Shown: positions 1,516-26,352 of the stretch, one piece after another
How positions within the stretch are numbered: position 1 is the first letter of the stretch
Layout: every line of letters begins with the position of its first letter
Source: a virus
DNA: 29,335 bases
Strand: one strand, 5' to 3'
Virus record (IMG/VR): IMGVR_UViG_3300009094_000055
Location: 1 to 29,335 of that record
Made by a program: the position numbers and the translations under genes
The notes under the pieces: model-generated
The model's database searches: none
The model's input: only the letters and a program-made list of their open reading frames with translations
What the model was told of the DNA's origin: nothing

Positions 1516-1550
1516 GTGGGTCATCCTTCATTTGTTGGCAAACAAAAGAT

Positions 1551-4073: not shown

Positions 4074-5947
4074 TACTGTAATCCTTCATTGGCGCCCTGA
4101 AGTCGCGCCATCTGTTCAAGGATGCGATCGAACGACGTTTTGCCGGTTGTCATCGATGGCGGCGGTGGATTCGCCATGCGATTCTGTGCCCACTTGCTTT
4201 GCAGAAGGCGCCCCTGAATGTCCGGCAGTATCTTGCCCACAGCGCCGGCGGCGACCGTTGCACCAACGTCACCGATCACTGGGCGCAGTGCGCCATAGGT
4301 GAGAAACGCCGGCCCGTAACGCTCGCCTGCCCGCGTGAAAGCACGATAGCCGCCGCCCTTGTCCGACCCATAATCCCAACGCCGCGCCAGCATTGCGAGG
4401 TCTTGTAGATCCTGCACGTTATTGCCGCCGAGCCGGGCCAGTTCCGCCTTGTCATTTGCCGTCAGATTGTCGATGCGATCAGCCAAGCCGCGCGGGCCGG
4501 CAGCGCTGTCGCGATTGAGCGAGGTGCGAAGCATCTCGGTCAGATCTTGCGCGGCGGACTGGCTGCGCGTGATGTCCATGGCGGCGTCGAAGGCTTCGGC
4601 CTTCACCCCGGCCGCAACAGCGGTTTTTTTCATGGCCTGCGTGGCCGGGTCATAGACCGTGCCGACATAGCGCGAGTCCATCCTTGGCATATCGCCAAGA
4701 TCCAAGCGCAGATTGGTGCGCCAGTTTTTGAACTGCTCATAAGTGACAAACGGCAGGGGGCCAGTGGCGCCCTGCATCCGCATGGCCTCCAGATCTTTCA
4801 AACGCGGCGCGACCTGCCTGTTCCAGTCGCCACGGTCCATCTGGTTCGCCAGCGCCCGCATAGTGTTGATAGTGTCGCTGACATCGACCGGGTTCTGTGG
4901 GCCGATACGCGCCGCCAAGTGCTGCTGTGCCGCCTGACTGGCATCGGCGCCGGCAGCGCGGGCGCGAGCGGCAACATCGACAATCTCCGCGTTCTCTGCG
5001 GTGCGCACCGGCAACGCTTGCCTGTTTTCAACCAGTCGCTTGCCGGCATCGACCATGCCGCCGAGCATCAGATCGCTCTGCGCCTGCACGGCTTCGCTCT
5101 TCGGCATCATGGTGCGTTCAAGCCGCTGACCTTCCTTGTTCGCAAGAGAACCGAAAGTGACCGGCATCGGGCCTTGCCCCGGCGCCCCTTGACGTTGCGC
5201 CGCTGCCGCGACTTCGCCTGCCTGTGTCCCGGCATATTGGACCGGATCGTAGCGACTGAGGATGGAGCGCGGAGCGCCGAGCGCCATCGGTGCGCCCATG
5301 CCGGCGGCAAGGCCGCCGATCAGGCGGCCTTTCTCGCCAAACATCTGGCCACCGACTTCACCGCCGACTTCACCGCCAACGACCGGGGCAACGGCATTGC
5401 GAATTGCGGAGCCGGCGCCGGCGAGAACGGCTTTGGCAACTGTCGGTGCCTGCGCCACGGCCCTGACGATGCCGGGGCCGGCGGGGATTGCGGCTGTGCC
5501 AACGGCCTCGGCAAACCTTTGTCCCGGCGTTGCCGCCTCCAGTGGAACGCCCATGGCATTAAGCGCCGCGTTGCCGGCTTCGGGGAACATCTTTTCACCT
5601 CTCGCCTCTTTCTTTTCCCGCAGCGTGCGCATTACTTCCGGCTCAAACGGATTGAGGCCCGCATTGCTGATGGCGGCAGGTATATCCCACGGTGCCGTGA
5701 CAAGGCGGGTGCCCATGCGCATGATGGCGTTGCCGACTTCCTGCATCAGTGGGTTTTGCACCAGCGGCGCTTCGGTCTTGTCGCTGACCTTGCGATAGGC
5801 TTCCGCGACCGTCACAAATTCCGGCGTGCCGGCCTTGTCCTTATTGTCGAGCAGCCAAGTCGCGTAATCGCGGCGCCGTTGCAGGTTTTCGTCCGGCGGC
5901 ATATCGGACGGGACTGGCGACTCTCCTATGGAGGTGTAGTCGGCCAT
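4073..5947 (-). CDS. Internal virion / DNA ejection protein, 624 aa
   Basis: The start overlaps the upstream stop as TGATG (5945-5949), with GGAAGG a few bases before. The N-terminal 60 residues are charged; residues about 130-240 are Ala/Gly-rich with several hydrophobic helices (GTAAIPAGPG, AVLAGAGSAIRNAVAP, repeated GGEVGGEVGG, LIGGLAAGMGAPMALG) that could insert in a membrane; residues 300-560 are helical, with Arg/Asp-rich coiled segments. Large, Ala-rich, partly membrane-seeking proteins in this position between head-tail and lysis genes are typical of podophage proteins that are ejected to build a channel in the cell envelope (compare P22 gp16/gp20 and T7 gp15). I see no catalytic motif. 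The role is from context and composition, not from a recognised domain. Confidence 0.7.
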   Translation of the reverse strand: MADYTSIGESPVPSDMPPDENLQRRRDYATWLLDNKDKAGTPEFVTVAEAYRKVSDKTEAPLVQNPLMQEVGNAIMRMGTRLVTAPWDIPAAISNAGLNPFEPEVMRTLREKKEARGEKMFPEAGNAALNAMGVPLEAATPGQRFAEAVGTAAIPAGPGIVRAVAQAPTVAKAVLAGAGSAIRNAVAPVVGGEVGGEVGGQMFGEKGRLIGGLAAGMGAPMALGAPRSILSRYDPVQYAGTQAGEVAAAAQRQGAPGQGPMPVTFGSLANKEGQRLERTMMPKSEAVQAQSDLMLGGMVDAGKRLVENRQALPVRTAENAEIVDVAARARAAGADASQAAQQHLAARIGPQNPVDVSDTINTMRALANQMDRGDWNRQVAPRLKDLEAMRMQGATGPLPFVTYEQFKNWRTNLRLDLGDMPRMDSRYVGTVYDPATQAMKKTAVAAGVKAEAFDAAMDITRSQSAAQDLTEMLRTSLNRDSAAGPRGLADRIDNLTANDKAELARLGGNNVQDLQDLAMLARRWDYGSDKGGGYRAFTRAGERYGPAFLTYGALRPVIGDVGATVAAGAVGKILPDIQGRLLQSKWAQNRMANPPPPSMTTGKTSFDRILEQMARLQGANEGLQ

Positions 5948-7935
5948 CAGCGGCGCCTTCCGACAAGCGCGTCGGCACGGTTAAACAGCGCGTCATCATC
6001 TGTCGGCTTCTTTGCCGGCGCCGCAGATATTCCGGCGGGCGGCGCCGTGGGTGTCGGCGACGGTGCAGCCTGTGAGGTTGTGGGCGTGGCCTGCACCGCC
6101 GCCGCTCCCCGTCGCGTTCCTGATGGCGCTATGTCCGGCGGCGCCCCGGCCGCCGATGTCGATGTCTGGCCGGGCGCCCCGCCATTAAGGTGGCCACCGA
6201 TCCTGATGAGTTCGGCATCGCCCGGTGTATCGCCGGTTTTGCCATCGAAGATTCCGTTGCCGTAGCGATTGATTTCCTTGTTGTCGAAACGTGGCGGCTG
6301 GGTCAGTTCCGGCAAGTGCTGACGCGGGTCGAGGTCACGCTGAAGCAGCGTGTCGTTGGTCTGTTGTGCCAGATTAACCGTGGCCTCAAACGACGATGTC
6401 GCCTTGGTGTAGGCCTGCTCAAGCATCTGCTGGCGTTGCTCCGGCGTCAGCCGGCCGCCGCCTTTGACATAGCTAAACAGGCCCTTCAGCCGCAGCGCGG
6501 GTGATCCGGCGCCCTTGGCTAGATCCAGTTCGCCCTCGCGCACTGCCGAGCCGGGATCCAAGATCTTGGCCAGTGCGTAGATCATGTGCAGGTCGCCGTA
6601 ACCGTTGTCGTACTTGGCCGCCCGTTGCATGCCGTTGTAGGCGGTTTCTGTCGTGCGCCAGTCATCCACGGTTTTGCTTTTGCTGAAGTTGGTAGCTTCC
6701 TGCTGATCGAAGCCCCGGTTGACCTGTGTGATGCTCATGGGGCTGCCCGGCGCCGTTTGCTGCTGCTTGATCGGCCCCGGATCCGAAGGCTTCCACTTGT
6801 ATGGCTGTCCGGCCGCCGCTGCCGGTGGTGCCCCCGGCGCCGCCGGCTGCGCTGCTGCGCCGCCGGGCGCGGCCAACCGATTGGTCGGAACGTCTGTAGC
6901 CGGCACTGAAGTTGTGCGAACGCTTGGCGCCCCGGACAGGAGTCCCTGATCGGTGCCGGGCAGTACGTTGCCGCCCGGTTGTGCCGGTGCGCCACCGGCG
7001 CCGGGTAATGGCGCTGTCGGAATTCCCGTTTGCGTTTCGGCTGGTTTGCTTGTTTGGCCCTTGCCGTAATACTCACGCCGGAGAAGTGCGTTCACCGCTT
7101 GCAGCCCCGGATTGTCCTCTTCTTTGTTGAAACCGATGACGATATTGCCACCGAACGGATCCTTGCCGGGCTGATGGATCTTTGGATTGGCGGCGTAATA
7201 CTTCTGCGCCAAGCTGGCCAACGGCTCTGCCGGCGTCCGACCCTGAAGGATCTCTTGGTTAGCGATTTGCAAATCGTTGGCATTTTTTTCTGGGCTGCCA
7301 AAGCCCGGCTGCGTCACGTTGACGGTGCTGCCGATGCCCTGCGGCCTGTAGTTAGATGGGACAAGCGAGGAAATCGGCTTGCCCGTGTAGACATCATTCA
7401 CCCCGTCGTGCGTCAGGAACGGGATCTGACGGCCGGTGCTGGGGTCCGCAAAAACCACGGTAAAGGGCGCCTTCGCTTCCTTGGTCGGATCCGGCGGTTT
7501 GCCGGCGGTCGCGGTGTAGACCTGCGTATAGTCGGCCGTACCCGGCGCCGGTCGGCCGGCCAGCATTTCGGTTTGCCCTTGGCCGTAGAAGAGTCCCTTG
7601 ACCACAGGCTCGCCACCGAGCGCGCCGGCCATGGTGGAGGCCTGCCCGAAACGGCGCCGCGCATTTAACAACTGCTCTTCCTGCTCCGGCGTCCAGTTGG
7701 CGCCAGCCGCACGCTTTGCATCGACCAGCCGGTCCATGTTTGGCTGAAACTCTGCCGCGCTGCGTCTGGCGTCCCACTCTTCCTGTGCCCGCGCCCGCGC
7801 TTCTGCACTCTTGCGGATTTCCTCGGCTATATGTGCCGCCTGAAGCTGGCGCTGCGGGCCGGCGGCAAGCGTGTTGGAAATCTTCATCAACTCGTTGCCG
7901 ATGACGCCGTTGTCGTCAAAATTTAAAACCGGCAT
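5947..7935 (-). CDS. Internal virion / ejection protein, 662 aa
   Basis: ATG at 7935 is preceded by GGAGG at 4-5 nt; a longer in-frame reading to 8022 would overlap the upstream gene heavily and is rejected. Residues 30-100 are helical and charged, 300-400 a Pro/Ala/Gly-rich linker, and 405-550 a helical block with a pattern I recognise from many phage virion proteins: DLHMIYALAKILDPGSAVRE followed by GGGRLTPEQRQQML and a QTNDTLLQ helix. The C-terminus is a Pro/Thr-rich tail. No enzyme motif is visible. It shares a TGATG junction with the next ejection gene, so the three large proteins (662, 624, 840 aa) are probably made in fixed proportion and carried together in the head. The conserved block supports a structural role; the exact function is unknown. 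Confidence 0.7.
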   Translation of the reverse strand: MPVLNFDDNGVIGNELMKISNTLAAGPQRQLQAAHIAEEIRKSAEARARAQEEWDARRSAAEFQPNMDRLVDAKRAAGANWTPEQEEQLLNARRRFGQASTMAGALGGEPVVKGLFYGQGQTEMLAGRPAPGTADYTQVYTATAGKPPDPTKEAKAPFTVVFADPSTGRQIPFLTHDGVNDVYTGKPISSLVPSNYRPQGIGSTVNVTQPGFGSPEKNANDLQIANQEILQGRTPAEPLASLAQKYYAANPKIHQPGKDPFGGNIVIGFNKEEDNPGLQAVNALLRREYYGKGQTSKPAETQTGIPTAPLPGAGGAPAQPGGNVLPGTDQGLLSGAPSVRTTSVPATDVPTNRLAAPGGAAAQPAAPGAPPAAAAGQPYKWKPSDPGPIKQQQTAPGSPMSITQVNRGFDQQEATNFSKSKTVDDWRTTETAYNGMQRAAKYDNGYGDLHMIYALAKILDPGSAVREGELDLAKGAGSPALRLKGLFSYVKGGGRLTPEQRQQMLEQAYTKATSSFEATVNLAQQTNDTLLQRDLDPRQHLPELTQPPRFDNKEINRYGNGIFDGKTGDTPGDAELIRIGGHLNGGAPGQTSTSAAGAPPDIAPSGTRRGAAAVQATPTTSQAAPSPTPTAPPAGISAAPAKKPTDDDALFNRADALVGRRR

Positions 7936-8636: not shown

Positions 8637-9275
8637 TCACGCCGTATAGCGGCCCCTATCAACGCCCGGCGGGTTCGCCTGTAGGCCCCTGCTGGTGTTG
8701 TAATTGTCTACAAACTGGTTAAGCCCGCTGATGCCACCCACCGCGATCGGTGTGAACAGCGCACCAAGCGGATTGAGATTTGGCGTGGCGATCTGACCTT
8801 GCTGTACCGAACTGGTTGCGGTGTTGGCGGCGACGGTCGGATCCTCAGTCGCGTACAGTTGCGACATCGCGCTCTGTTTCTGGTTGGCGATCTGATTGCG
8901 CAGTTGTGCCGCCTGCTGATCGCCGGCCGCCTTCATGGCGGCGGTATTAACTTCGTTTTCCTTGAACAACTGGGAGGTGGCATCAACGGCTGCCGTTGAG
9001 CGCAACAACCCGGCGCGCGACAGATCGGCGGTCAGCTTGTCCCGCGCCCGCTGATACTGGTCTTTGACCTGCGGCAGCGAGTAATTCAGGTATTTGTTCT
9101 CGTAGTCCTGATAGAAGGCATCATCAAAGCCGCCGCCCTCAAAAATTGAGTTGATCGCTTCGCTGCCTTGCTTCAGGCGGGCCTGCCGCTGGGCCTCTTT
9201 CTGCTTGGCCTCTTCGGCTTGCTGCATCTCAAATTGTAGCTGCGCGTTGTTTGATGATCTTGCTTTTCCGCCCAT
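8637..9275 (-). CDS. Coiled-coil virion protein, 212 aa
   Basis: ATG at 9275 overlaps the stop of the upstream GNAT gene as TGATG; the GTG one codon earlier is less likely. Residues 10-40 are Gln/Glu/Lys-rich coiled coil, 45-105 carry a conserved-looking block (FDDAFYQDYENKYLNYSLPQ, then DKLTADLSRAGLLRSTAAVD), 105-150 are helical and Gln-rich, and the C-terminus is Asn/Gly-rich. I recall this YLNYSLPQ/SRAGLL pattern from small podophage virion proteins encoded next to ejection genes. It probably belongs to the internal core or the head-tail passage. No catalytic motif, signal peptide or membrane segment is seen. Confidence 0.65.
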   Translation of the reverse strand: MGGKARSSNNAQLQFEMQQAEEAKQKEAQRQARLKQGSEAINSIFEGGGFDDAFYQDYENKYLNYSLPQVKDQYQRARDKLTADLSRAGLLRSTAAVDATSQLFKENEVNTAAMKAAGDQQAAQLRNQIANQKQSAMSQLYATEDPTVAANTATSSVQQGQIATPNLNPLGALFTPIAVGGISGLNQFVDNYNTSRGLQANPPGVDRGRYTA

Positions 9276-9766
9276 CACAGCACCTTTCGCATGATGACGC
9301 CGATTTCCTCGGCGCCAAATTTCCTGAATAAATTTTTGAGTGTTGGGACGGCCTCGTGACCGCCGGCGATCGGAATGTGCATTGCAACCGCGCCGTCACC
9401 TTTTGCCAGATCCATCGCAGCCCAGACCAGCATGCGGCCGACCGGAGTAAATCGATACGCCGAATAGGCGAATATCTCGCCGAGCACCGCGCACTTGTTG
9501 TCGGAAAAACTGCCGTCGAGCGAGTAAGAGATGACGCCGACGATGTCACCGCTATGGACCGCGACAATGTGCGGACAGACGCCGTTGCCAATCGCGGCGG
9601 TCAGATATTTCGATGTCGCCACCGGGTCACATGGAAACAGTTTGTTGTAGGTCGGGCTTTCCTGTAGCAGCGTCATCGCCAGCGCGGTGATCTGCGGAAC
9701 GTCCTCGACCGTTGCCAGCCTGATCTGGATTGCCGGGTGCGTTTGTCGCTTGGCGGCGGTGCTCAT
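9275..9766 (-). CDS. GNAT-fold acetyltransferase-like protein, 163 aa
   Basis: Residues 16-60 (IQIRLATVEDVPQITALAM and following) are the usual GNAT N-terminal strand and helices; HIVAVHSGDIVGVISYSL is the central beta hairpin; AVLGEIFAYSAYRFTPVGRM is the strand leading to the acetyl-CoA helix, though the classical R/QxxGxG/A loop is only partly kept (RFTPVGRM). The C-terminus (FRKFGAEEIGVIMRKVL) matches the closing GNAT strand pattern. ATG at 9766 has AGGTGG 8 nt upstream. This start lies inside the preceding gp13-like gene, giving a 140-nt overlap in another frame. The substrate is unknown; it may be a structural GNAT-fold relative like its neighbour rather than an enzyme. Confidence 0.7.
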   Translation of the reverse strand: MSTAAKRQTHPAIQIRLATVEDVPQITALAMTLLQESPTYNKLFPCDPVATSKYLTAAIGNGVCPHIVAVHSGDIVGVISYSLDGSFSDNKCAVLGEIFAYSAYRFTPVGRMLVWAAMDLAKGDGAVAMHIPIAGGHEAVPTLKNLFRKFGAEEIGVIMRKVL

Positions 9767-10223
9767 CTCTGAGCCACCTGTAAAGAATAAAATCTTCGCC
9801 GCGTTTGCCGGAGGAACGCATACAGGCTTCGGGGACGGCGCCAAACATTTTGAGCCAGCGGCCAGTATCGGTGCGGCCTGCCAGTGCTCGGCACTCGATC
9901 CGGTGAAACCCCAGATCCAGCAGAACCGGGAACATAAAGCGATTGACGTGCTTTGTCATCGTTAACAGCGCCCGGCCCCAGTCGTTTGTGCCGTAAGCAA
10001 AGGCGTAGCCGACCCCCGGCCACATCGGCACCAGCCCCCATGTGGTAATTGGCACCTTGTCGCGGCTGACAAACGCCATCAGCGACGTAGCCAAGATCTT
10101 TTCGGCCAAAAAGCCGGGATCCTCGCTGATCGCGGTCGCCGACAGTTCGATGCGATCCGGCTCGCGCAGGTTCTCGGTGACGTACTTCAGTGTGTCGAAC
10201 GTCGCCACTTCGACGCGGATCAT
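9627..10223 (-). CDS. T7 gp13-like virion assembly protein (GNAT-like fold)
   Basis: The first 150 residues follow the pattern of T7 gp13-type proteins, needed for internal virion protein assembly and built on an acetyltransferase-like fold: N-terminal IRVEVATFDTLKYVTENL, then WGLVPMWPGVGYAFAYG, a helix with ALLTMTKHVNRFM, FHRIECRALAGRTDTGRWL and FGAVPEA, ending FILYRWLR. The final 45 residues (Arg/Asp/Gly-rich) are low in hydrophobics and are translated from DNA that also encodes the next GNAT gene. At 198 aa it is longer than T7 gp13 (138 aa), mostly because of this tail. Its ATG overlaps the nozzle gene's stop as ATGA (10220-10223), so expression is coupled to the tail genes. Confidence 0.7.
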   Translation of the reverse strand: MIRVEVATFDTLKYVTENLREPDRIELSATAISEDPGFLAEKILATSLMAFVSRDKVPITTWGLVPMWPGVGYAFAYGTNDWGRALLTMTKHVNRFMFPVLLDLGFHRIECRALAGRTDTGRWLKMFGAVPEACMRSSGKRGEDFILYRWLRDEHRRQATNAPGNPDQAGNGRGRSADHRAGDDAATGKPDLQQTVSM

Positions 10224-15616: not shown

Positions 15617-17872
15617 TCAGCCTCCCGGTCCCGGCATTGCGCCGGCCGCTCCCGGCGGCGGTGCCCCGGTCATCTGGCCGGCCATGTCGGGCGGCCCACC
15701 CGGCGGTAACTGTGATGGGCCGGCTTGGTTGCTGGCGCCCTGCGGACCCTGCCCGGCGCCGGCCGGCGCGCCAGCCATGGGCGCCTGTCCTTTTACCATT
15801 CCGTTCATGGCGACAATCGACGGCAGTTGCGACTTGAAGGCCTGCGTCAGATCTAGGCGATCGTCGAGCCGACGCAAAAGGTCTTTCGCTAGGTAATTTG
15901 GATCGATTCCCGGAATCTGGATCAACAGCGGATAGATGCGTTGAGCGTTGGCGACTTCCTGCGCGGCGTTCGGCCGGCCCATGGATCCTGCCTCGATTTC
16001 CAGCAGCACCTCCTGCGCGATGTCCTGCCGCGACATCTCCGGCCACACACAGCCGATGCCGACAATTTTTTCAACGGTCGGCTTTGTCACCTCGGCCAAC
16101 AAGATCTGGCCGCCATTGCGCGCAAGCTGGGTCAGCAAGTCATTCAGGTCGTCGATGTTTGATCCCATCGATGTCATACGGCTGCCTTCGGCGATCTGTG
16201 CCTGCGTGGCGGTGGTGTCCGACGTGCCGCCCAGATTGGCCTCTTGGATCCCGGTGGTGCGAAGGATGTCCTCATAGACTGGGTTAACTTCGTACAAGTT
16301 CTGGTCGATGCCCGGCCCGGCAAAAGCCTGCAACAAATTTTTAATGTCCTGATTCGGTTGCAGCGCGTTCAACTCAAGGATGGCGTTCGGCTCTCGTTCC
16401 GACAGCTTGACCAGATCATCCTCTTCCATGGCGCCGGCAACCACACCGATAAACGGCCGCGCCGCTTTGCGCTGCTCCTTCAGGCCCTCGCGGCAGCGGT
16501 TATATTCCTTCTGCATGTCGCGCATGAGCCGCACGTCGGACGGCGGGAAAATTTCGTTCTCGTGGTCGCTTTCGTTGAAAATCAGCCCGTACCACGGATA
16601 GAACCGCTCGTTATAGATTTCGGGGCTGGCCGGCTCGCGTAGAAAATCCTCGTAGCCGTCACATACTTCGTACACGAGGCCATCCTTGCGGCAATAGATC
16701 TGCCAGACACAACAGAATTCGCACTCGCGATCGGCCGCCTTGCCGCCCTCGCGCCACTCGTAGCCGGCCATCATCTCGTGCGCCATGCGAACCGGATCCG
16801 GCCCCTTCATGTCATTGCGCCTGTAGGCGGTGTAAGCCGTGCCGACATCAACGCCGTAGATTTCCTCGATTTCGTTCGGCGTCAGCATGAATTCCTCGGC
16901 GACCCAATCGCTGCCGAGAAAGTTTCGCAACTCGATCGTCTTGGGGTCAGGGATGATGTTGGTGGATAATGGATAGTCGAAGGTCAGGCCTTCGCGCGCC
17001 ACAAATTGCGACTGTAGCGCCATGTCGTTAATCATCAGCCGCAACTGCTCGGCTTCCTTGCTGTCCTCGGCGGTGATTTCGTCATGCAGGTCGGCGCCCA
17101 GCCGCTCCAGTGTAGCCAGCCGCTCATTGGCGTCAGCGATGCCCTTCTCCATATCGGGCCGCTGCTCCATCACCCGCTCAAAGCCCAGCTTGACCCAGCC
17201 GACGCCGGTGGTGACGGTACGTCGCACGGTCAGCTTCATCATGTTTTTGAACGGGTGCGGCTGCTCGGCGACGTTATAGGCGTAGAGCAGTTCCAGCGTG
17301 CGCCCCAGCTTGTCGAGCATGGCGTTTTCCTGCTTCACGCGCAGCGCGTCTTGCGCAATCGCCATGCCTTGCTGTAACGCGCCCATCGCCGCCGGATTCA
17401 TCAATCCCATCATTCCAGTCGGCGAGGTCTGTGCCTGCTGCATCAGCATGCCGGCCGACTGCACTAACTGCTCCAGTGAGGTTTGTGATTCATCCCAGAC
17501 TGTTGCGTTCAAGCGCTCGCGCCGGCGCGCAACGGCCTTCGGGTTCTTCGCGTACAGAAACGCGGTCTTTTGCGCGACCAGCCGCAGCGTCAGGTTGGCG
17601 ACGTAGCGCGGGTCGGTGTCATCCTTCGACCACTGCTTTCCGAAACAAAAATCCTGATCGTCGCGCATGCGCTTGAAGGCTTTATCCCAATGCGATTTCG
17701 CTGCCTTCACGCGGCTCGCCCATGCGTTGACCAGTGCCGAGCGTTGATCCGGCGGCTCCGGCGCCTCGCGCGAGATGTGATCCTTTTTGGCCTCTTCTAC
17801 GACACCAGTGAGCGGCGATGCCGCGTCGGTCGGTGGAGCCATATCCATGCCAGTGGGGTCATCTATTACCAT
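15617..17872 (-). CDS. Portal protein, P22-like, 751 aa
   Basis: The length and pattern fit the P22-type portal: an N-terminal helical region (ALVNAWASRVKAAKSHWDKA, DDQDFCFGKQWSKDDTDPRY), the clip/stem segments, RRTVTTGVGWVKLGFERVME, YPLSTNIIPDPKTIELRNFL, FYPWYGLIFNESDHENEIFP followed by VRLMRDMQKEYNRCREGLKE, and IRRTTG-like YEDILRTTGIQEANLG before the C-terminal helices. The last 60 residues are Gly/Pro/Ala-rich and disordered. Twelve copies form the ring through which DNA enters and leaves. The start ATG overlaps the terminase stop as ATGGTAA (17866-17872), so translation is coupled to the motor gene. A strong ribosome site for the next gene lies within its last codons. Confidence 0.88.
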   Translation of the reverse strand: MVIDDPTGMDMAPPTDAASPLTGVVEEAKKDHISREAPEPPDQRSALVNAWASRVKAAKSHWDKAFKRMRDDQDFCFGKQWSKDDTDPRYVANLTLRLVAQKTAFLYAKNPKAVARRRERLNATVWDESQTSLEQLVQSAGMLMQQAQTSPTGMMGLMNPAAMGALQQGMAIAQDALRVKQENAMLDKLGRTLELLYAYNVAEQPHPFKNMMKLTVRRTVTTGVGWVKLGFERVMEQRPDMEKGIADANERLATLERLGADLHDEITAEDSKEAEQLRLMINDMALQSQFVAREGLTFDYPLSTNIIPDPKTIELRNFLGSDWVAEEFMLTPNEIEEIYGVDVGTAYTAYRRNDMKGPDPVRMAHEMMAGYEWREGGKAADRECEFCCVWQIYCRKDGLVYEVCDGYEDFLREPASPEIYNERFYPWYGLIFNESDHENEIFPPSDVRLMRDMQKEYNRCREGLKEQRKAARPFIGVVAGAMEEDDLVKLSEREPNAILELNALQPNQDIKNLLQAFAGPGIDQNLYEVNPVYEDILRTTGIQEANLGGTSDTTATQAQIAEGSRMTSMGSNIDDLNDLLTQLARNGGQILLAEVTKPTVEKIVGIGCVWPEMSRQDIAQEVLLEIEAGSMGRPNAAQEVANAQRIYPLLIQIPGIDPNYLAKDLLRRLDDRLDLTQAFKSQLPSIVAMNGMVKGQAPMAGAPAGAGQGPQGASNQAGPSQLPPGGPPDMAGQMTGAPPPGAAGAMPGPGG

Positions 17873-19428
17873 CCGCTGAGACTCCCTTTGACGCGATCAA
17901 GGCCCTCGCGTCGTTTTGTCTGCGCCCACAAGGCGCGGTACGTCCCTTCCTGCACGGTTGGTTTTTCTGGCTTTTGCCGGTTGCGTGGCCGCATTTTCGA
18001 CAGGCCAAGCCCGATCAATGAAAGCGTATCGACAAAATCATCCTTGGAGCCGTTCGGAAATTTTAGGATCTGGTCCTGCGCCTCGGACCACCAGCGGCAC
18101 CACGTCGGGAAGTGAACCATCTTCATCGCGCTGCGCGCCTGAATGGCCTGCGCGCGTTGCTGCTTATCGACCGCCGGCGCGATTGGATCCATTGCACAGA
18201 ACACACGCTTCTCCAGCATGCGTTTGCGCAGGAACGGGCCGATCGATTTGGTGATGCTGCCGGCTTCCGCCCACCAGAATTGCGGTTTGTATTTTTCGAT
18301 CAGCATGCACATGCCTTCGACGGCGGCATGGCTATCGAGCCTCATCCACACCACGTCTGGCATGACCCAGACGTGATCGGCCTTATCGACGCCGACCACC
18401 ATCAGGCATGTTTTGTCGCCCTGCTTCTCAAGCGTCACCGCATGATCGGAAGCGGCGTAGAAACGCATTTCCTCGTGTGCCGGCAGGTCGCGCATGCTGT
18501 TGTAGCCGACCAGATCCTTGTGCTGGAAAAACGCGCCCTCTTTCGGCGATGGCCGCCCTTGGTAGAGCGCCATGAAGCCGCGTGGATCGGAGGCGCGGAT
18601 TTCCTCAAGATATTTTTCATCGAAGCGGTCAGGCCACAGCGCCTCGCCCGGTTTGCGGCCGAGCACATCGTCATCCTCGGCCAGCGCCGGCAGATCGATC
18701 GAGCGCCAGATCTTTGCTTCCTCGTGGCTGTAGTAAGGATTGAGCGGATCCGTCAGGCGGCCAATCAGGTCATCCTCATTCCATCGCGTCTGAATCATCA
18801 CGATTGTCCCGTGACGATTCATCAACCGCGTGCGCAAGACCTGCGTGTACCAAGTCCACAGGCCGTCGCGGATGGTGATGCTGTCCGCTTCCTTGCGGTC
18901 TTTAATCGGGTCATCCAGCAGGATGGTGTGAGCGCCGCGCCCGGTGATGGCGGACCCACGACCGACGCAAAAGACAACGCCGCCGGCGGTCGTTTCCACG
19001 CGGTTGACAGCGGCAGCGCGCTTTTTAATTTCCAGTTCTGGAAACACCTGCCTGTATTGCGGCGTCTCCATGATGTCGCGGATCTTGCGACCCAGATCCC
19101 AGCTATAGTGCTCGTTGTACGTTGCAACGATCACCGAGCGGTCGGGGTGACGACCGGCATACCAAGCCGGATACATATTCGACGCCAGCGTGGTCTTGCC
19201 GGCGCGCGGCGGTAAAATGATTTTTAGCCGCCGGATTTTGCCTTTTTCGACTTCCTCCAGCCCGACGCAAACGACCTTGTGAAACTTCTGCGGCGAATAA
19301 AGCGAGAAGGCCGGGTCATCCGGGTTCTCCGGGTCCGGCATCATTAACTGCGCGAAAGCGATCAGATCGTTGCGGGCTTGCAGGATCGCTTTCTTGCGCT
19401 TGAGCAGCACAAGATGACGCGAACTCAC
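17866..19428 (-). CDS. Terminase large subunit, 520 aa
   Basis: DNA packaging motor. The N-terminal ATPase has Walker A PPRAGKTT (residues 75-80 the core), Walker B HTILLDD (D172-D173) and the coupling motif QTRW (213-216). The C-terminal RNase H-like nuclease shows D328 in AASDHA, E388 in WWAEAGS and DDFVD (463-467) as the likely metal ligands. Length is normal for the family. The start is GTG at 19428, the first possible codon after an in-frame TAA; the ribosome site is poor (GGGGTGG about 11 nt away) and a 10-bp stem-loop sits right upstream. It cuts and pumps concatemeric DNA into the prohead through the portal encoded next. No small terminase gene is recognisable in front of it, where it would be expected. 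Confidence 0.93.
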   Translation of the reverse strand: MSSRHLVLLKRKKAILQARNDLIAFAQLMMPDPENPDDPAFSLYSPQKFHKVVCVGLEEVEKGKIRRLKIILPPRAGKTTLASNMYPAWYAGRHPDRSVIVATYNEHYSWDLGRKIRDIMETPQYRQVFPELEIKKRAAAVNRVETTAGGVVFCVGRGSAITGRGAHTILLDDPIKDRKEADSITIRDGLWTWYTQVLRTRLMNRHGTIVMIQTRWNEDDLIGRLTDPLNPYYSHEEAKIWRSIDLPALAEDDDVLGRKPGEALWPDRFDEKYLEEIRASDPRGFMALYQGRPSPKEGAFFQHKDLVGYNSMRDLPAHEEMRFYAASDHAVTLEKQGDKTCLMVVGVDKADHVWVMPDVVWMRLDSHAAVEGMCMLIEKYKPQFWWAEAGSITKSIGPFLRKRMLEKRVFCAMDPIAPAVDKQQRAQAIQARSAMKMVHFPTWCRWWSEAQDQILKFPNGSKDDFVDTLSLIGLGLSKMRPRNRQKPEKPTVQEGTYRALWAQTKRREGLDRVKGSLSGW

Positions 19429-21517: not shown

Positions 21518-21719
21518 TTTTCATCTTCTCCATGATTTCTTCTGGCTTTTCACGCACGCACAGTCCGCGTGGACCGACACGGATGGCCGCACCTGTGCCT
21601 GCGCTGCATGAAGCGATGTGCGGGCGTATGATGATAACTTGTGTGCTCTCTACCCAAACCGGCGAGCCGTCGAGCGATGTCAGCATGACCAGTGCGAGTA
21701 CGATGGTCGCTTTGTTCAT
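21507..21719 (-). CDS. FlbD-like small protein, 70 aa
   Basis: The pattern LTSLDGSPVWVESTQVIIIR, then GTGAAIRVGPRGLCVREKPE and EIMEKM, resembles FlbD-like small beta proteins (LTxLxGxxVxVNxxxIxxI ... GTxIxLxxGxxxxVxExxEEV). Such domains occur in small phage proteins as well as in flagellar operons; their biochemical role is unclear. The N-terminus (KATIVLALVMLTS) is hydrophobic and could be taken for a signal peptide, but lines up with the first strand of the fold. ATG at 21719 overlaps the fibre gene's stop as ATGA, with AAGG just upstream. Moderate confidence in the similarity. Confidence 0.5.
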   Translation of the reverse strand: MNKATIVLALVMLTSLDGSPVWVESTQVIIIRPHIASCSAGTGAAIRVGPRGLCVREKPEEIMEKMKNAR

Positions 21720-23281
21720 AGCCTTATCATCACGTTGAGGAAGGTTGTCGGCTGCACGTTGGTATGCGCGGCACCGCCGCCGATACTCGTCACCATGCCG
21801 TTGGTGCTGTTGACGTTCGGTGCGGTGCTTGAGAACATCGCGCCGCCAGAATTTTCCAGCAGGAATGATTGGATCGCCGCCGGGTCAGTAGACGGAGTGG
21901 CGCCACCGGGCGGCTTCCCGGCATCCTGCATTTTAAGTTGATGTTCATGCGCGGGGATTTGCGCCGCACTCAGCGCGACGGCTTCAACGCCATCCGTCTG
22001 CCCAACCACATGCGGCGTCAGGCCAGCACCGGCGCCAGCCGCAGCCAAGGCACGACCGAGCACTTTAAGCAGCGCGATCCGCTTGTGTGCCGTCCAGTCA
22101 GCGTCGGCGCTGGCGCCGCGACCGCCGGTGACGGGCGCATAGGTCTGGTTGATGTTGGCCCACAGCAGCTTATACAGCGCCTCGCAGTCAGCATTGGCGT
22201 GCGTTGCGCCCGACAGATCATCGCCAATGGTGCCGTCGTTCATCAGCAACCAACCGAGCGATGCCACGGTGTTGATCGTAAACTTTACGTCACCAGTGTC
22301 CCAGACCGTCGCAACGTCGCCGACTTGCTTGGTGATGGCCTGTTTCACGCGCAAGGGCGTCATGCCCTTGGTGTTGTTGGTGCCGGTTTCCGCCTCTGTC
22401 TGCGTGGCGATTGCTTTAATCAACTGCTGGGTGGCAATCTCCTGCGCGGTGCGCAGTGGTGTCATCGCCTTGTCATCGACAGTGCCGGCTTCGGCCTCGG
22501 CTTGGGTGGCGACGGTCACGGCGATGGTGCGGTCAACACTCAGATCACCGCCGCCCGTCGCCAACCCCGAAGTGCTGATGAGCCGGATGTTCGGCACCAT
22601 GACGGCAAACGTCGCGCTGATGTTCGACCACGAGCCGTTTTGCCTCGCAAAAATATTCCCATCTACAGGCGCTTCGGCAAGGCCGGTGCCCTTGTTATCA
22701 ACGTACTGCTTGGTCGCTGCTTCAAGGCTGCCAGTCGGATTGCTTGCCAGCGTGAGCGGCCCGGTCAGCGTGCCTCCCGCCAATGGCAGATAGTTGGCGG
22801 CAATATTGTCGTCAGCCGCCGCAAAAGCCACGGTGACGGCGGCGATTGCTTGGTCGCTATATTGCTTGGTAACGGCCTCCAGATCACCGACCGGATCGCG
22901 CCACAGCACGAGCGGCCCGGCCATGGTGTCGCCAGCGCGTGCAACCTTGCCGGTGGTTTCGCCGCTGATGTAGTCGCGGGTGGCGGTGTCGTCAGAATAT
23001 TTTTCCCAATCGACTGGATTAAATGCGGCAGGGAAATTGAGGTTTGCCTTGGCGCGATACAGCGTACCGGCATTGACGACAAAATCCCCGGCAGCGTACA
23101 CCGCGCGCGCGTCAAAAATTCGCACCGCCAGCAACGACAGCGGAGAGCCGATCGATGCGGATGCGGAGTCGCCCACGGCAACCTGCCGATTAGCCGTGTT
23201 GACGGAGAGTTCTCCCGGCTCCAGTTGACTAAACACAACTGACGGGTTCGACGTGCGCCTGTGCCGATAGTGCGAAGTCAT
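21716..23281 (-). CDS. Tail fibre with C-terminal collar domain, 521 aa
   Basis: Residues 1-95 are an N-terminal domain (YRHRRT, LEPGELSVNTANRQVAVGD, VRIFDARAVYAAGDFVVNAG) shared with the fibre at 24793-26352 and probably the virion anchor. Two copies of the tail-fibre repeat AGDTMAGPL...LEAVTKQYSD / GGTLTGPL...LEAATKQYVD follow (115-196), then EAPVDGNIFARQNGSW, and two repeats of AEAEAGTVDDKAMTPLR type (259-312). Residues 330-521 are a phage tail collar-type domain: GWLLMNDGTIGDDLSGATHA, a Gly-rich middle, AAQIPAHEHQ and the terminal QPTTFLNVMIRL. It would bind the host surface. AGGAG precedes ATG 23281. Good confidence for receptor-binding fibre. Confidence 0.85.
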   Translation of the reverse strand: MTSHYRHRRTSNPSVVFSQLEPGELSVNTANRQVAVGDSASASIGSPLSLLAVRIFDARAVYAAGDFVVNAGTLYRAKANLNFPAAFNPVDWEKYSDDTATRDYISGETTGKVARAGDTMAGPLVLWRDPVGDLEAVTKQYSDQAIAAVTVAFAAADDNIAANYLPLAGGTLTGPLTLASNPTGSLEAATKQYVDNKGTGLAEAPVDGNIFARQNGSWSNISATFAVMVPNIRLISTSGLATGGGDLSVDRTIAVTVATQAEAEAGTVDDKAMTPLRTAQEIATQQLIKAIATQTEAETGTNNTKGMTPLRVKQAITKQVGDVATVWDTGDVKFTINTVASLGWLLMNDGTIGDDLSGATHANADCEALYKLLWANINQTYAPVTGGRGASADADWTAHKRIALLKVLGRALAAAGAGAGLTPHVVGQTDGVEAVALSAAQIPAHEHQLKMQDAGKPPGGATPSTDPAAIQSFLLENSGGAMFSSTAPNVNSTNGMVTSIGGGAAHTNVQPTTFLNVMIRL

Positions 23282-23316
23282 GGCTCAATCACTCCTCAAT
23301 CACGAGTAGGGCGCAG

Positions 23317-23595
23317 TCAGCCGCCTTTCATTTTTTTGCTTAGGAAGTCACCAATCGTCAGCGGCGGCTGTCCTTCCAGCGAGCGCAAACGGTTCTCATG
23401 GTCGTACAGCACCACATCTTCCGGTGCCGGTTCTGGCGGCACCGGCGCTGGCGGCACATAAGGATCGGGCACACCGCCGTCGGCGAGCCATTGCTCGTAC
23501 TCGGCGCGATCACGGTTGGCTGGATCATCGGGAATTGACGCGCCATCCTCGGTACGGATGACAACATCGGTGGCGGTGAGTTGATAGTCTGCCAT
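23317..23595 (-). CDS. Tail fibre assembly-like protein, 92 aa
   Basis: ATG at 23595 overlaps the upstream stop as TGATG and gives MADYQLTATDVVIRTEDGAS; an earlier in-frame start would run into the preceding gene and is rejected. DDPANRDRAEYEQWLADGGV and PYVPPAPVPPEPAPEDVVLY form the typical middle of small phage proteins encoded next to fibres (N.D...Y..WLA.GG.PDPY.PP), and the end LRSLEGQPPLTIGDFLSKKM is a helix. These often act as fibre chaperones or tail-fibre assembly factors; that role here is inferred from pattern and position between two fibre genes. Confidence 0.65.
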   Translation of the reverse strand: MADYQLTATDVVIRTEDGASIPDDPANRDRAEYEQWLADGGVPDPYVPPAPVPPEPAPEDVVLYDHENRLRSLEGQPPLTIGDFLSKKMKGG

Positions 23596-24791
23596 CACAG
23601 CCTCGCATCGAGTGTCAAGCCGGTAAGAGCTACTTGCGTTGCACCCGCGCCCGGTACGGTCCAACCTGCATTAAGGTATTGAGTCCCAATGGAGGTAAGG
23701 ACGAATGAACTGGCGTTTACATAGGCCGCCCCAAGTGCCGTGACCGTGGGAGGTGCGCGCATCTTTGAGAAGAAAACAGGTGTATTCCATTGACTTGGCC
23801 CCGTCAGACAACCCCAAAATGTCATAGTCCCTATCGACTGATAATATCGCTGACACAACACCAGTTCCTGATCGTAAGGCCGCATGATGAACGGCGAACG
23901 CGCGGCGCTTGGTGCTTCATTGCCGGGAAGCACGACGACGCCGGTGATGCGGAACAGGTCGCTCATCGCGCCGACGCCGTTCACCTGACCCGGTGCAGCG
24001 ATGTAGTTGCCAGCGAGCCATGCATTAGCTGATGGTGCTGTGAAGGTCGCGCCGCTAGCTATTGCAAAATGAACAGAGAGGCCGACTGTATTGTCGGTGG
24101 CCCAAGCACCTGTCGTATCGCCGGGAATAGTAACAGTGTTGTACTGCGGAACGTCAGCAGCGGCTTGCGTATAGGTGAAGGCGTAAGATCGTGTGCCGCC
24201 AACATTGCCGACAACGCCACTATAAAGGCCGGTTCGGTGATGCGCTGTCCAGAAGCCAATAGTGATCGGCTGTGCGTTTGCAGTGCCCCACTGTAGTCGT
24301 GCAATACGAAAGCCTTCGATTTGGGTCATGACTTGCACAAAGTCGCCAGCGCCTAGCGATGCCTGCGCGGTTCCCATGCTTGTGATGAGGTTATAAGGAA
24401 AGCCGGGAAATACGGTTGATGCGGCAGCGGCTACACCGACCGACATTGTACCGGCCCAATAAAATTTCCAGCCATCGCAAATGTAACTTCCGTTCGCGCC
24501 CGTACCAGCCGTGCCTTTCTCCTGACTGACCTCCATCGCACCATTAATCTGTAAGCCGCTATAGGCCATCGCATCAAACGGTGCAGCGTAAATGTTCTGC
24601 CGTGCTTGTTGTTGCTGCGGCGCTGTCAGCGTTTGTACGGTGTCGTATAGCACGGCCATGCCGCCGCCAGTTGCACCGCCTATCGTCGTCCACTTCTCGC
24701 CGTCCCATGTGTAGGTAGGAACGCCAGCGACAGGTGATGCCGGATATTTCTGGCCGATGCTAGGTGATGCAGGAAAGTCAAATGCTGCCAT
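23595..24791 (-). CDS. Putative receptor-binding / fibre tip protein, 398 aa
   Basis: ATG at 24791 (MAAFDFPASPSIGQKYPASP) has AAGGA 8 nt upstream; the ATG at 24800 has no spacing. The opening and TYTWDGEKWTTIGG are a common phage fibre N-terminus. TAPQQQQARQNIYAAPFDAM is a short helix seen before fibre head domains. Residues 100-398 are beta-rich (GLQINGAMEVSQEKG, YICDGWKFYWAG, FRIARLQWGTANAQPITIGF, CQRYYQSIG) in the manner of phage carbohydrate-binding tail proteins, a pattern (NGAMEVSQE ... DGWKF ... CQRYYQ) I recall from many phage tail proteins. Its DNA is visibly less GC-rich than its neighbours, suggesting module exchange. The exact ligand is unknown. Confidence 0.7.
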   Translation of the reverse strand: MAAFDFPASPSIGQKYPASPVAGVPTYTWDGEKWTTIGGATGGGMAVLYDTVQTLTAPQQQQARQNIYAAPFDAMAYSGLQINGAMEVSQEKGTAGTGANGSYICDGWKFYWAGTMSVGVAAAASTVFPGFPYNLITSMGTAQASLGAGDFVQVMTQIEGFRIARLQWGTANAQPITIGFWTAHHRTGLYSGVVGNVGGTRSYAFTYTQAAADVPQYNTVTIPGDTTGAWATDNTVGLSVHFAIASGATFTAPSANAWLAGNYIAAPGQVNGVGAMSDLFRITGVVVLPGNEAPSAARSPFIMRPYDQELVLCQRYYQSIGTMTFWGCLTGPSQWNTPVFFSKMRAPPTVTALGAAYVNASSFVLTSIGTQYLNAGWTVPGAGATQVALTGLTLDARL

Positions 24792-24792
24792 A

Positions 24793-26352
24793 TCAATCAT
24801 CCTTTCCGCGTCGATCAATCCAGCCGGTTGTACTGATGTAAAAATTACCGGTGGTGCTGCCTCGGACGCCAACTTGTTGACTGGTGTTTGTCAGCACACG
24901 ACAGGTCGCGGGTCCGGTGTATGGCGATGCCGCAGGGGCAGATGCGGTAACGCCGCCGCCGCCATTCGCCGCAGCTGCTTCATCAAGCTGCAAGGGTGAG
25001 GTGACGAGGGCACTGACCGTCGCAGAGGGACCGGCAACAAGAAAATTAAAACACGCCTCGACGTTCACGCCGGATGGCACAGTGAGTGTGACAAAATTGC
25101 GTGAGGATGAATTAAGCGCGACGTTGTTTGCGTCGAAAAAAGCACCCGCTGTCCAGAGAAAATTATCACCAACCTGACTAAACTTGGTCCATTGCCCACC
25201 AGCCGCAATACGCATCGCACCAATGCGGCGCTTGAGTGTGTAGCTGGCTGGCATGGTCGGCGCGGTTGGCGAGAGCGACACCAAAACATCAACAACGCCG
25301 GTGTCGGTGCGCTTGATAAGGAAAACGTGATACCAAGTCGCGGTCACAACCGTGCCGGTGTCGAGCGCACCATTGCCAGAACCAGCCACCCACGCCCCCG
25401 ATGTTTTGCTGATGGCGGCTGCGAGTGCAATCGTTGCCGTGTTGCCGTCATCAGTCGCTTGTCCTGCGGCAACTGAAAATGTCGTCGAGCTTCCGGCGGT
25501 CGAAAGCGCCAGCCCTGCAAGGTGGCTCCTTGTTACAAACACACTGGTGTCAGGCTGTGGACAGGCGATGACCCACTGCGTCGAGTTGCCGTCATTGTAG
25601 CGGACGTAAAGCAGACCAGTGTCGCTCTCCCACCACAGAGAGCCATCCTTTGCGCCAACGGGCGGTGATGCTGCGACAAACAATGAAGCGCCGGCGGCAT
25701 CGACGTACTGCTTCGTCGCCGCGCCGAGGACGTTCGACGGATCGGCATTGAGGATCAGCGGCCCGGTCATCGTGTCGCCAGCCTTGGCGACCTTGAGCGC
25801 GTCCTGCGTATCGACGTAGGTCTTGTCAGCCTTCAGCGCGTCGGCGGAATCGACATAAGTTTTGTCGGCCTTCAGCGCGTCGGCACTATCGACGTAAGTC
25901 TTGTCGGCCTTGAGCGCGTTTGCGCTGGCGAGCGCGGCGTCGGCGGCATCGACGTAAGTGATCGCCGCCTTCTCGGCATCGACCTCGGCAATCGCTGCCT
26001 GTACGTTGGTCGCCGAGACGTTGCCGCCCGGCGCAAACCCAACCATGGCGGCAGTCGATGACGACCCAATCTCGCTCCAGTTTGATGCGTTGAAGGTGCC
26101 CGGCGGGATCGAACCGTTGGCTTTATAGATCTTGCCGTTCTGGACGACGATGTCGTTAAGGACGTAGGCCCCGGTGGCGTCGAAGAAGCGCACGCCGATG
26201 AGTTGTTTCGGCTGGCCGAGCGTGCCAGCGGCAGCATCACCGACCGCAATCTGTCTCTGCGCGGTGTTGACGACAATCTCGCCGGGTTCAACCGGCGACG
26301 GGAATGGCGTTGCGGCAAGCGGAGTGCGTCGGTGGCGATAACGCGATGTCAT
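24793..26352 (-). CDS. Tail fibre protein, 519 aa, repeat-containing
   Basis: ATG at 26352 (MTSRYRHRRT) has AGGAG 9 nt upstream and matches the start of its paralogue at 21716-23281; the TTG at 26358 is less likely. Residues 1-95 are the shared N-terminal domain (EPGEIVVNTAQRQIAVGDAA, VRFFDATGAYVLNDIVVQNG). Residues 110-187 are a coiled coil including three 13-residue repeats of type ALKADKTYVDSAD (146-184). AGDTMTGPLILNADP...AATKQYVD is the fibre repeat; KDGSLWWESDTGLLYVRYND follows. The C-terminal half (about 270-519) is beta-rich with no collar domain, so the two paralogues differ in tip. Probably a trimeric fibre. The stop is 2 nt from the next start. Confidence 0.8.
   Translation of the reverse strand: MTSRYRHRRTPLAATPFPSPVEPGEIVVNTAQRQIAVGDAAAGTLGQPKQLIGVRFFDATGAYVLNDIVVQNGKIYKANGSIPPGTFNASNWSEIGSSSTAAMVGFAPGGNVSATNVQAAIAEVDAEKAAITYVDAADAALASANALKADKTYVDSADALKADKTYVDSADALKADKTYVDTQDALKVAKAGDTMTGPLILNADPSNVLGAATKQYVDAAGASLFVAASPPVGAKDGSLWWESDTGLLYVRYNDGNSTQWVIACPQPDTSVFVTRSHLAGLALSTAGSSTTFSVAAGQATDDGNTATIALAAAISKTSGAWVAGSGNGALDTGTVVTATWYHVFLIKRTDTGVVDVLVSLSPTAPTMPASYTLKRRIGAMRIAAGGQWTKFSQVGDNFLWTAGAFFDANNVALNSSSRNFVTLTVPSGVNVEACFNFLVAGPSATVSALVTSPLQLDEAAAANGGGGVTASAPAASPYTGPATCRVLTNTSQQVGVRGSTTGNFYISTTGWIDRRGKDD
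25801..25917 (-). repeat. Three 39-bp tandem repeats in the fibre gene
   Basis: Three consecutive 39-bp units encode ALKADKTYVDSAD, ALKADKTYVDSAD and ALKADKTYVDTQD in the fibre at 24793-26352; the DNA copies differ at several third codon positions, so they are not a recent exact duplication. Unit number would set the length of the fibre coiled coil, so gain or loss by recombination could change reach. Confidence 0.75.

Follow-up and report, generated by a model that had tools for sequence, protein, structure and literature searches.

The window analysed here is a stretch of 29,335 bases from an IMG/VR virus record (IMGVR_UViG_3300009094_000055), and positions and strands refer to it unless another contig is named. 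It contains the tail-fibre island of a putative short-tailed phage, whose genes are all encoded by the minus strand and are arranged as c1, small genes, F1, middle gene, sm and F2 (Table 1). F1 and F2 are old paralogous fibres with homologous N-terminal anchors, and the middle fibre gene between them is anchorless. The open reading frames (ORFs) of these three genes lie where the original prediction had placed them. That prediction had also proposed recombination between the duplicated ends of the two fibre genes, through which receptor-binding tips would be switched or branched. Homology, gene architecture, recombinant alleles in contigs and the positions of seams were observed and point elsewhere: very probably, recombination that exchanges tips takes place at conserved seams within the fibre genes and not at the duplicated 5' ends. 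Below, L with a number denotes a locus of a relative and G with a number denotes a record.

Cassettes and seams of the Tmid tip

The middle gene had been described as encoding 398 residues, low in guanine-cytosine (GC) content and exchangeable. Its GC content is indeed 0.559 compared to 0.606 for the record, with 4 of 282 stretches of the same length being as low, and its tip family sits on anchored as well as anchorless genes. This family, Tmid, was defined by residues 79-398 of the middle protein (P0002). The tip is carried by an anchored gene in 33 of the 55 listed loci, 23 of which also have an anchorless gene bearing it, while in four of the 55, including the window, it is found on an anchorless gene only. 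For the 62 tips placed in a tree, 32 of them anchored and 30 anchorless, 22 label changes were counted compared to a shuffled mean of 21.0, and 382 of 500 shuffles were as low as observed, so that the position of a tip is uncorrelated with phylogeny.

The structural model of P0002, with a predicted local distance difference test score (pLDDT) of 85, has a jelly roll at residues 78-290. It matches xylan- and xyloglucan-binding modules of CBM4 (Z score 14.2, root-mean-square deviation (rmsd) 2.6 Å, 161 aligned; Foldseek E = 1.6e-7). Since the modelled jelly roll spans this range, the seams J1 and J2 would lie at the domain edges, and because of the CBM4-like fold the Tmid tip may bind a glycan.

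After removal of near-identical tips (at least 80%), 60 of the 62 were retained for the analysis of 4-fold degenerate sites. Identity at these sites is near the codon-usage level at residues 94-279 and 316-393 and higher at residues 40-92, 280-315 and 394-398. The backbone was used for comparison, with a control of 11 loci and 54 pairs for the terminase large subunit (TerL). Distant pairs have a 4-fold identity of 0.49 for TerL, 0.54 for the portal, 0.57 for both c1 and sm, and 0.53 for the anchor. For Tmid in the 11 loci with TerL, the values are 0.57 for J1, 0.62 for J2 and 0.79 for J3, compared to 0.30 for the core and 0.28 for the knob. Core and knob are saturated, and the seams behave like the backbone. 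A special conservation of J1-J3 was considered and dropped, as the backbone control is similar and the cassettes have a codon usage unlike that of the seams.

Base composition follows the same borders. The GC content at 4-fold sites is 0.87 in c1, 0.84 in J1, 0.56 in the core, 0.79 in J2 and 0.51 in the knob. Among 28 tips with c1, the core is below c1 in all 28 and below the seams in 27, and the knob is below the seams in 28. The corresponding values in the window are 0.86 for c1, 0.80 for TerL, 0.51 for the middle core, 0.71 for J2 (21 sites) and 0.50 for the knob; the N-terminal part of the middle gene is likewise low (0.53, 49 sites). Column shuffling gave a variance of 0.0308 for J2 compared to 0.0218 for the highest of 40 shuffles, a modest haplotype excess, and 0.0427 compared to 0.0402 for J1.

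Recombinant alleles were sought among 166 distinct tips, taken from 257 near-full-length sequences of 278 ORFs (re-fetched loci included), of which 12,376 pairs had enough aligned columns. The core is at least 75% identical and the knob below 58% in 11 pairs, the knob is at least 75% and the core below 65% in 10, and 14 pairs are alike in both; several of the discordant pairs reflect one event. In Case A, L098 has two genes, core1-J2-knob1 and core2-J2-knob2, and L100, which matches it at 98.8-99.1% along most of the upstream stretch, runs from core1 into knob2. This reads as a deletion of 1,390 bases with the switch at P0002 residue 305, L098 probably representing the earlier state. An arrangement that reads as a deletion between paralogues, which the original prediction had suggested looking for, thus exists for tandem tip genes. 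The fused J2 junction of 121 nucleotides has no mismatch in L099, L100, L102 and L106, which come from four metagenomes (two of these contigs were re-fetched as L235 and L238).

The remaining cases involve both seams. L103 equals L158, from an anchored lineage, in J2, knob 1 and gene 2 (99.4% over 1,602 bases), with cores that are 50% identical (Case A'). The F1 of L167 equals that of L165 up to J2 (99.8%, 3,987 bases) and gene 3 of L196 beyond it (99.0%, 510 bases; Case B). The F1 genes of L186 and L190 have different cores (49%) between a stretch of 97.5% identity ahead of the tip and full identity (100%) from J2 onwards (Case C). In gene 2 of L197, the core corresponds to that of gene 3 in L196 (97.1%) and the knob to that of gene 2 in L196 (99.0%), with switches at residues 76-77 and 283-285 (Case D). 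Finally, the F1 genes of L179 and L182 differ in the knob only (core 92%, knob 41% at the nucleotide level; Case E). Six switches were mapped, two of them being one event, and all are located at J1 or J2.

A test independent of the cassette borders used blocks of at least 97% identity and at least 90 nucleotides between distinct tip genes. It yielded 49 blocks with 28 internal ends, 16 of them unique, and 14 of these 16 fall into the seams (10 in J2, 4 in J1) and none into the knob. As J1 and J2 together make up about 20% of residues 47-392, a binomial estimate by hand gives about 1e-8, which is overstated because several ends come from one event.

Close relatives differ in the same way. In the pairs L087/L142, L180/L205 and L010/L199, the F1 anchors are 94-98% identical and the F1 tips 51-71%, with c1 and, where present, TerL at 94-100%. 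For L087/L142, the values are 100% for c1, 98% for the F1 anchor and 51% for the F1 tip, and the middle gene has 89% in its N-terminal part and 45% in its tip. L180/L205 have 98% for TerL, 94% for the F1 anchor and 52% for the F1 tip. The N-terminal parts of L189 and L193 are 94-98% identical, and their tips are at 45-59%, the third value covering 39 residues; a single 60-nucleotide bin within a tip reaches 98%. The tip switching of the original prediction is therefore borne out at F1 and the middle genes, where relatives differ by swapped tips with clear breakpoints, but not at F2 in five close pairs.

Table 1. Features of the fibre island and backbone marker in the window
Feature	Position	Strand	Remark
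c1, conserved upstream protein, 475 aa	27620..29047	-	weak tail-fibre PHROG matches; island border
F1, anchored tail fibre, 519 aa (P0003)	24793..26352	-	ATG at 26352
F1 anchor, residues 1-95	26068..26352	-	Mtd_N-like plus CBM5/12-like part
F1 spacer	25699..25921	-	39-nt repeats (25799-25921) and AGDTMTGPL module (residues 186-218)
F1 W module, residues 219-278	25519..25698	-	
F1 tip TF1, residues 279-519	24796..25518	-	
Middle fibre gene, 398 aa (P0002)	23595..24791	-	anchorless member of the Tmid tip family
J1 seam, P0002 residues 64-92	24516..24602	-	
Core cassette, P0002 residues 94-279	23955..24512	-	CBM4-like jelly roll
J2 seam, P0002 residues 280-316	23844..23954	-	about 280-318
Knob cassette, P0002 residues 318-392	23616..23840	-	
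J3, P0002 residues 393-398	23598..23615	-	conserved 3' end of the middle gene
sm, small protein, 92 aa from its ATG (P0004)	23317..23595	-	
F2, anchored tail fibre, 521 aa (P0001)	21716..23281	-	
F2 anchor, residues 1-95	22997..23281	-	sister to the L141 F2 anchor
F2 tip TF2, residues 312-521	21719..22348	-	collar-like
TerL, terminase large subunit	17866..19428	-	downstream backbone marker

Anchors, shared 5' ends and tips of F1 and F2

The likeness of the two fibres that was originally described is confirmed at the protein level: 45 of the first 95 residues are identical (47%, BLASTP E = 4e-24), two short AGDTMTGPL-type stretches also align, and the C-terminal halves have no BLASTP match to each other. 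The likeness of the leaders is also real, as the 11 nucleotides AGGAGTGATTG are identical ahead of both start codons. This 11-mer occurs in 5 of 66 anchored genes (F1 and F2 of the window, L149 F1, L141 F2 and L191) and is thus a feature of some lineages only. At the DNA level, 160 of 292 alignment columns of the shared 5' ends are identical (55%) with a longest identical run of 9 nucleotides, indicating that the duplication is old.

The anchor profile matched 88 viral stretches, of which the best 80 were kept, giving 79 loci. A hidden Markov model search of 221 records covered 109 loci (re-fetched ones included) with 62 distinct signatures, 14 of which have two full anchored genes. In the bacterial genome collection, 19 pattern matches to the anchor profile contained no relatives. 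The alignment of 54 anchors has a mean column identity of 62%. Mtd_N matches 20 of them at E <= 0.05 (best 1.1e-5), the sole full fibre with a listed score falling under the curated cut-off, and CBM_5_12 matches 19 at the same threshold. Residues 1-96 of the anchor model (pLDDT 91.6) resemble residues 21-118 of gp124 of Agrobacterium phage Milano (Z score 8.7, rmsd 4.5 Å, 82 aligned) and residues 22-118 of the 7-7-1 tail fibre (Z score 8.0, rmsd 5.2 Å, 84 aligned), and most other structural matches span residues 52-98 only; VIA-align re-examined Foldseek's own matches, so that these comparisons, like that of the P0002 jelly roll, are confined to the folds in that list. According to the available part of the Milano study, residues 1-175 of gp124 form the tail-binding module, and the stretch PPGPFDPANW is named among the tail contacts (PMC10811340). 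Residues 60-98 of the anchor profile align with this stretch. Because of this structural match and the tail-binding function of the matched region, the anchor would bind the tail.

Relatives were compared for exchange at the shared 5' ends, and swaps there are not supported; the mapped breakpoints instead coincide with the borders of the tip cassettes. Within 13 two-copy genomes, the DNA identity of the F1 and F2 anchors has a mean of 0.675 (range 0.57-0.72) and is no higher than between genomes (mean 0.672, maximum 0.74, 169 pairs), and the window pair is the least alike of the 13. No F1 anchor is sister to the F2 anchor of its own genome in a tree of 66 anchors, which is based on 99 columns, has many open forks and includes one merged duplicate F2 anchor. 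The window F1 groups with L149 F1 (100/91) and then with L140 and L141, the window F2 groups with L141 F2 (98/97), and the F2 anchors of L149, L140, L087 and L194 form a separate clade (100/98). Since these groupings disagree, F1 and F2 have different histories, and one of these F2 genes or its 5' part moved between lineages. Such movement, the homology of the anchors and the leader common to both in the window would all fit recombination between the duplicated 5' ends as the process that switches or deletes tips. In addition, engineered Ackermannviridae phages recombined fibre genes with conserved 5' ends, as far as the accessible text of that work goes (PMC11414711). Nevertheless, this explanation is unlikely given the low identity and short identical runs of the window anchors, the missing excess of identity within genomes and the lack of any pair above 0.74 between genomes.

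In the window lineage, a whole-tip difference at F1 and the incongruence of F1 and F2 are the only signs of exchange that were seen. F1 of the window and of L149 share 83% in the anchor and 24% in the tip, the level of unrelated sequence. Of the nearest F1 relatives, L149 and L140 carry a Tmid tip and L141 an S74-chaperone tip, whereas the window carries TF1. The W module has 65% identity to L140, 63% to L142, 60% to L087 and 55% to L141; it ends near residue 278 and is the last module common to these F1 genes and the window, but it is not common to L149 F1 (26%). TF1 is located on anchorless ORFs of 238 to 1,298 amino acids in all 22 other loci that it retrieved; L093 couples it to a divergent anchor, and Bradyrhizobium phage ppBjS10J-1 carries it at 44%. 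L395, L400 and L402 have TF1 on two or three successive ORFs per contig. TF1 seems to be a second tip family held in tandem. Upstream of it, three to four copies of a 39-nucleotide direct repeat encode units of 13 amino acids such as KADKTYVDSADAL, possibly forming a shaft of variable length.

The collar domain that had been assigned to F2 is supported indirectly: residues 311-521 match Bordetella phage proteins annotated as tail collar at 46%, but no Pfam family matches at E <= 0.1. F2 has residues 1-225 in common with L141 F2 (52-71% by segment), and its tip resembles the F2 tips of L149, L140, L087 and L142 (44-46%). To judge from the sequences, this mosaic may stem from a tip swap in L141 or from an exchange of the 5' part, in either direction. 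The GC content at 4-fold sites is 0.60 in the F1 tip compared to 0.75 upstream, and 0.78 compared to 0.74 for F2.

Contigs of the same species were compared with the window. A record of 43,577 bases (43.6 kb) differs at three of 19,578 compared bases and at none of another 8,378, and is identical across the island. L004 reaches position 5103 and includes F1 as well as the beginning of the middle gene, L084 starts at 5952 and covers F2, and neither differs from the window in these parts. In oriented positions, L006 has one difference in 1381-7610, nine in 1-1380 and 21 in 7611-7783. Its island is thus almost identical to that of the window with both flanks more divergent, and in 7611-7783 the identity falls to about 88% right at the F2 end, which may be a recombination edge or the result of a chimaeric contig.

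Genome context and probable mechanism of exchange

The backbone genes suggest a short-tailed phage: TerL matches PHROG 38 (E = 9.7e-99), the match to a P22-like portal is weak, and there are also matches to an internal virion protein and a major head protein. Among phage records, the closest TerL is that of Microcystis phage Mae-Yong1326-1 (51%), followed by Rhizobium phage RHph_N65 (43%) and Pseudanabaena phage Pam1 (38%). G011 (46,357 bases) and G014 (46,972 bases) each have one part of TerL at either end of the contig, which suggests that they are complete and that genomes in this group of phages are circularly permuted, with a length of 46-47 kb. IMGVR_UViG_3300021082_000020 (94,958 bases; L208, L218, L348, L354) contains two fibre islands and a second TerL gene, as would result from the joining of two genomes. 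A PHROG acetyltransferase match (E = 5.8e-13) lies among the virion genes at 9275-9844 of the window. An sm homologue is present in 25 of the 37 listed loci carrying a Tmid tip, and sm is possibly a tip chaperone. In bacterial genomes, the Tmid profile found seven loci, the best being Bradyrhizobium elkanii WSM2783 (59%), a sequence match that hints at rhizobial hosts for the tip pool. On this contig, L299 5221-7325 is a Tmid-tipped fibre ORF with collagen repeats, followed by an sm-like stretch.

The exchange is most likely homologous recombination at conserved seams between co-infecting phages or tandem paralogues. For Tmid, the exchanged units would be the CBM4-like jelly-roll core and the C-terminal knob, each replaceable alone, and the partners would be tandem genes of one lineage as well as different lineages. 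The recombination could be performed by the machinery of the host or by a RecE/RecT-like pair of the phage. The 43.6-kb record has a YqaJ/RecE-like exonuclease (Pfam E = 1.1e-10; PHROG 'RecE-like' 8.3e-25) adjoined by a RecT-like annealing protein (PHROG 1.1e-27; Pfam RecT 21.5 bits, under the cut-off of 24). YqaJ matches 7 of 10 records, five of them over the cut-off, and the RecT-like protein has weak matches in two of the other nine. Phage recombinases of the RecE/RecT type accept short, imperfect homology. The tips would bind surface glycans, swaps could change the host range, and selection would favour new binding tips. A more tentative possibility, given less than even odds, is a combinatorial tip library: the tandem anchorless tip genes would be an in-genome store, and two-seam recombination, aided by the RecE/RecT-like pair, would move core and knob independently between store, anchored fibres and co-occurring phages. 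If true, this would yield new core-knob combinations without a retroelement or a fixed-site switch.

A site-specific recombinase with an inversion or cassette system could also swap tips, since the species of the window and four relatives encode a serine recombinase of the DNA-invertase type. PF00239 was detected in 5 of 10 records (G001, G002, G004, G006, G011), each with two anchored fibres, and neither in G012-G015, whose fetched stretches show one anchored fibre, nor in the 29-kb window record. It is therefore present in 5 of 5 searched two-anchor records and 0 of 4 with one anchored fibre in the fetched stretch, these genomes being few and related. The gene at G001 5940-6362 (L139 1835-2563) has 'DNA invertase' as its best PHROG (E = 3e-28); PF00589 matches 7 of the 10 records, six over the cut-off. 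Such a system is nonetheless very unlikely to explain the swaps. None of 157 tip ORFs (re-fetched loci included) lies on the strand opposite the anchors, the island of the window species contains no inverted 14-mer, and no 16-mer is common to the island and 1 kb around the recombinase gene, although imperfect sites would escape both searches. The gene is also located in the replication and recombination region and not beside the island, the switches occur at several places (residues 76-77, 283-285, 282-302, 302-305 and 305), and the L182 and L188 lineages swap cassettes without PF00239 in their fragmentary records.

Assembly chimaeras joined at conserved seams could produce mosaic alleles as well, all data being metagenome contigs, and L165 and L196 of Case B share a sample number and 59 identical nucleotides in the switch region. 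This explanation is highly improbable for the set as a whole. The parents share at most 17 identical nucleotides in the examined region in Case A, 17 in A' and 15 in D, and overlaps this short are small relative to the word lengths that assemblers commonly use. In contigs from four metagenomes, the fused junction is repeated without a mismatch, and the contrasts in saturation and GC content within genes extend over the whole family. Divergence in place through strong selection or a diversity-generating retroelement would fit tips that are far more divergent than their flanks and the Mtd_N-like matches in the anchor. This is hardly credible in view of the abrupt borders, the identical or near-identical cassettes found on different cores or backbones, and the reverse transcriptase PF00078 being found in none of the 10 records, some of them fragments.

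Several observations weigh against exchange at the seams in addition to the serine recombinase. The seams are no more conserved than the backbone, so that no dedicated recombination site is shown, and single 12-codon TerL windows reach a 4-fold identity of 0.80. Two of the 16 unique block ends lie off the seams, one in the core and one just upstream of J1. Case B could be a chimaera because of its 59 shared nucleotides, and the genes of Case A start with another N-terminus instead of the 95-residue anchor. The Tmid tree is poorly resolved, and its bootstrap has not settled. No recombinants involving the window's own middle gene were found, and four other contigs of its species, two of them spanning the whole island, have no alternative tip or deletion. 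The F2 tips follow their anchors in the five comparable close pairs, with anchor and tip identities of 100/100 for L087/L142, 97/95 for L010/L199, 97/89 for L140/L194, 80/72 for L140/L149 and 76/77 for L172/L208; switching is thus seen at F1 and the middle genes and not at F2. The middle tip of L179 and L182 is 100% identical, which counts against a general rule of tip swapping.

Relation to known systems and significance

At the distal tail-fibre locus of T-even phages, recombination at conserved motifs reportedly swaps adhesin specificity, a finding said to go back to Tetart, Desplats and Krisch in 1998. As at that locus, the junctions described here lie inside the tip gene at conserved motifs, but other proteins are involved, the units are a jelly roll and a knob, and the seams are common to tandem tip genes.

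In the branched tail-spikes of Ackermannviridae, recombination of two genes of the same genome replaced the receptor-binding domain, according to the accessible part of PMC11414711. Both systems have several fibre genes in a row. As far as that text goes, the homology lies in the N-terminal XD/TD domains there, whereas it lies in the seams flanking the tip cassettes here. The name gp10-like (XD) is absent from the Pfam and PHROG matches of F1, F2 and the middle protein, no structure search having been made for it, and no depolymerase domain was recognised in the window proteins by Pfam or PHROG. Phage pan-genomes from cryoconite have near-identical cores, receptor genes down to about 40-70% and independently shuffled variants, in the excerpt considered (PMC7468147); the variants are traced there per gene or domain, whereas the junctions mapped here fall into two seams within the gene. 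For phage receptor-binding proteins, a general survey reported that C-terminal domains were recently shuffled behind N-termini that are nearly identical; its available text describes no tandem seam system (PMC10684548), while the seams identified here lie in tandem genes. Compared to known systems with a conserved N-terminal module and an exchangeable C-terminal specificity module, as represented in the accessible literature, the exchange described here involves cassettes below the level of the tip and passes between anchored and anchorless genes.

In the literature searched, to the extent of the text available, no published description of a two-cassette tip with mapped seams common to anchored and anchorless genes was found, and publications on tandem or paralogous tail-fibre genes indicate no such system in their titles or the beginnings of their abstracts. 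The exchange of whole tips is already well known; judged by these partial sources, a two-cassette tip with mapped seams appears to be new.

Sequences of natural phages directly reveal the units of exchange below the level of the gene, together with their seams. These seams coincide with the predicted edges of a single sugar-binding-like domain, and tips are traded between neighbours with and without an anchor. Swaps of this kind could alter the binding targets of the virus. How fast natural phages are re-aimed becomes testable by counting reads across the junctions, and natural domain borders are offered for the study of glycan recognition.

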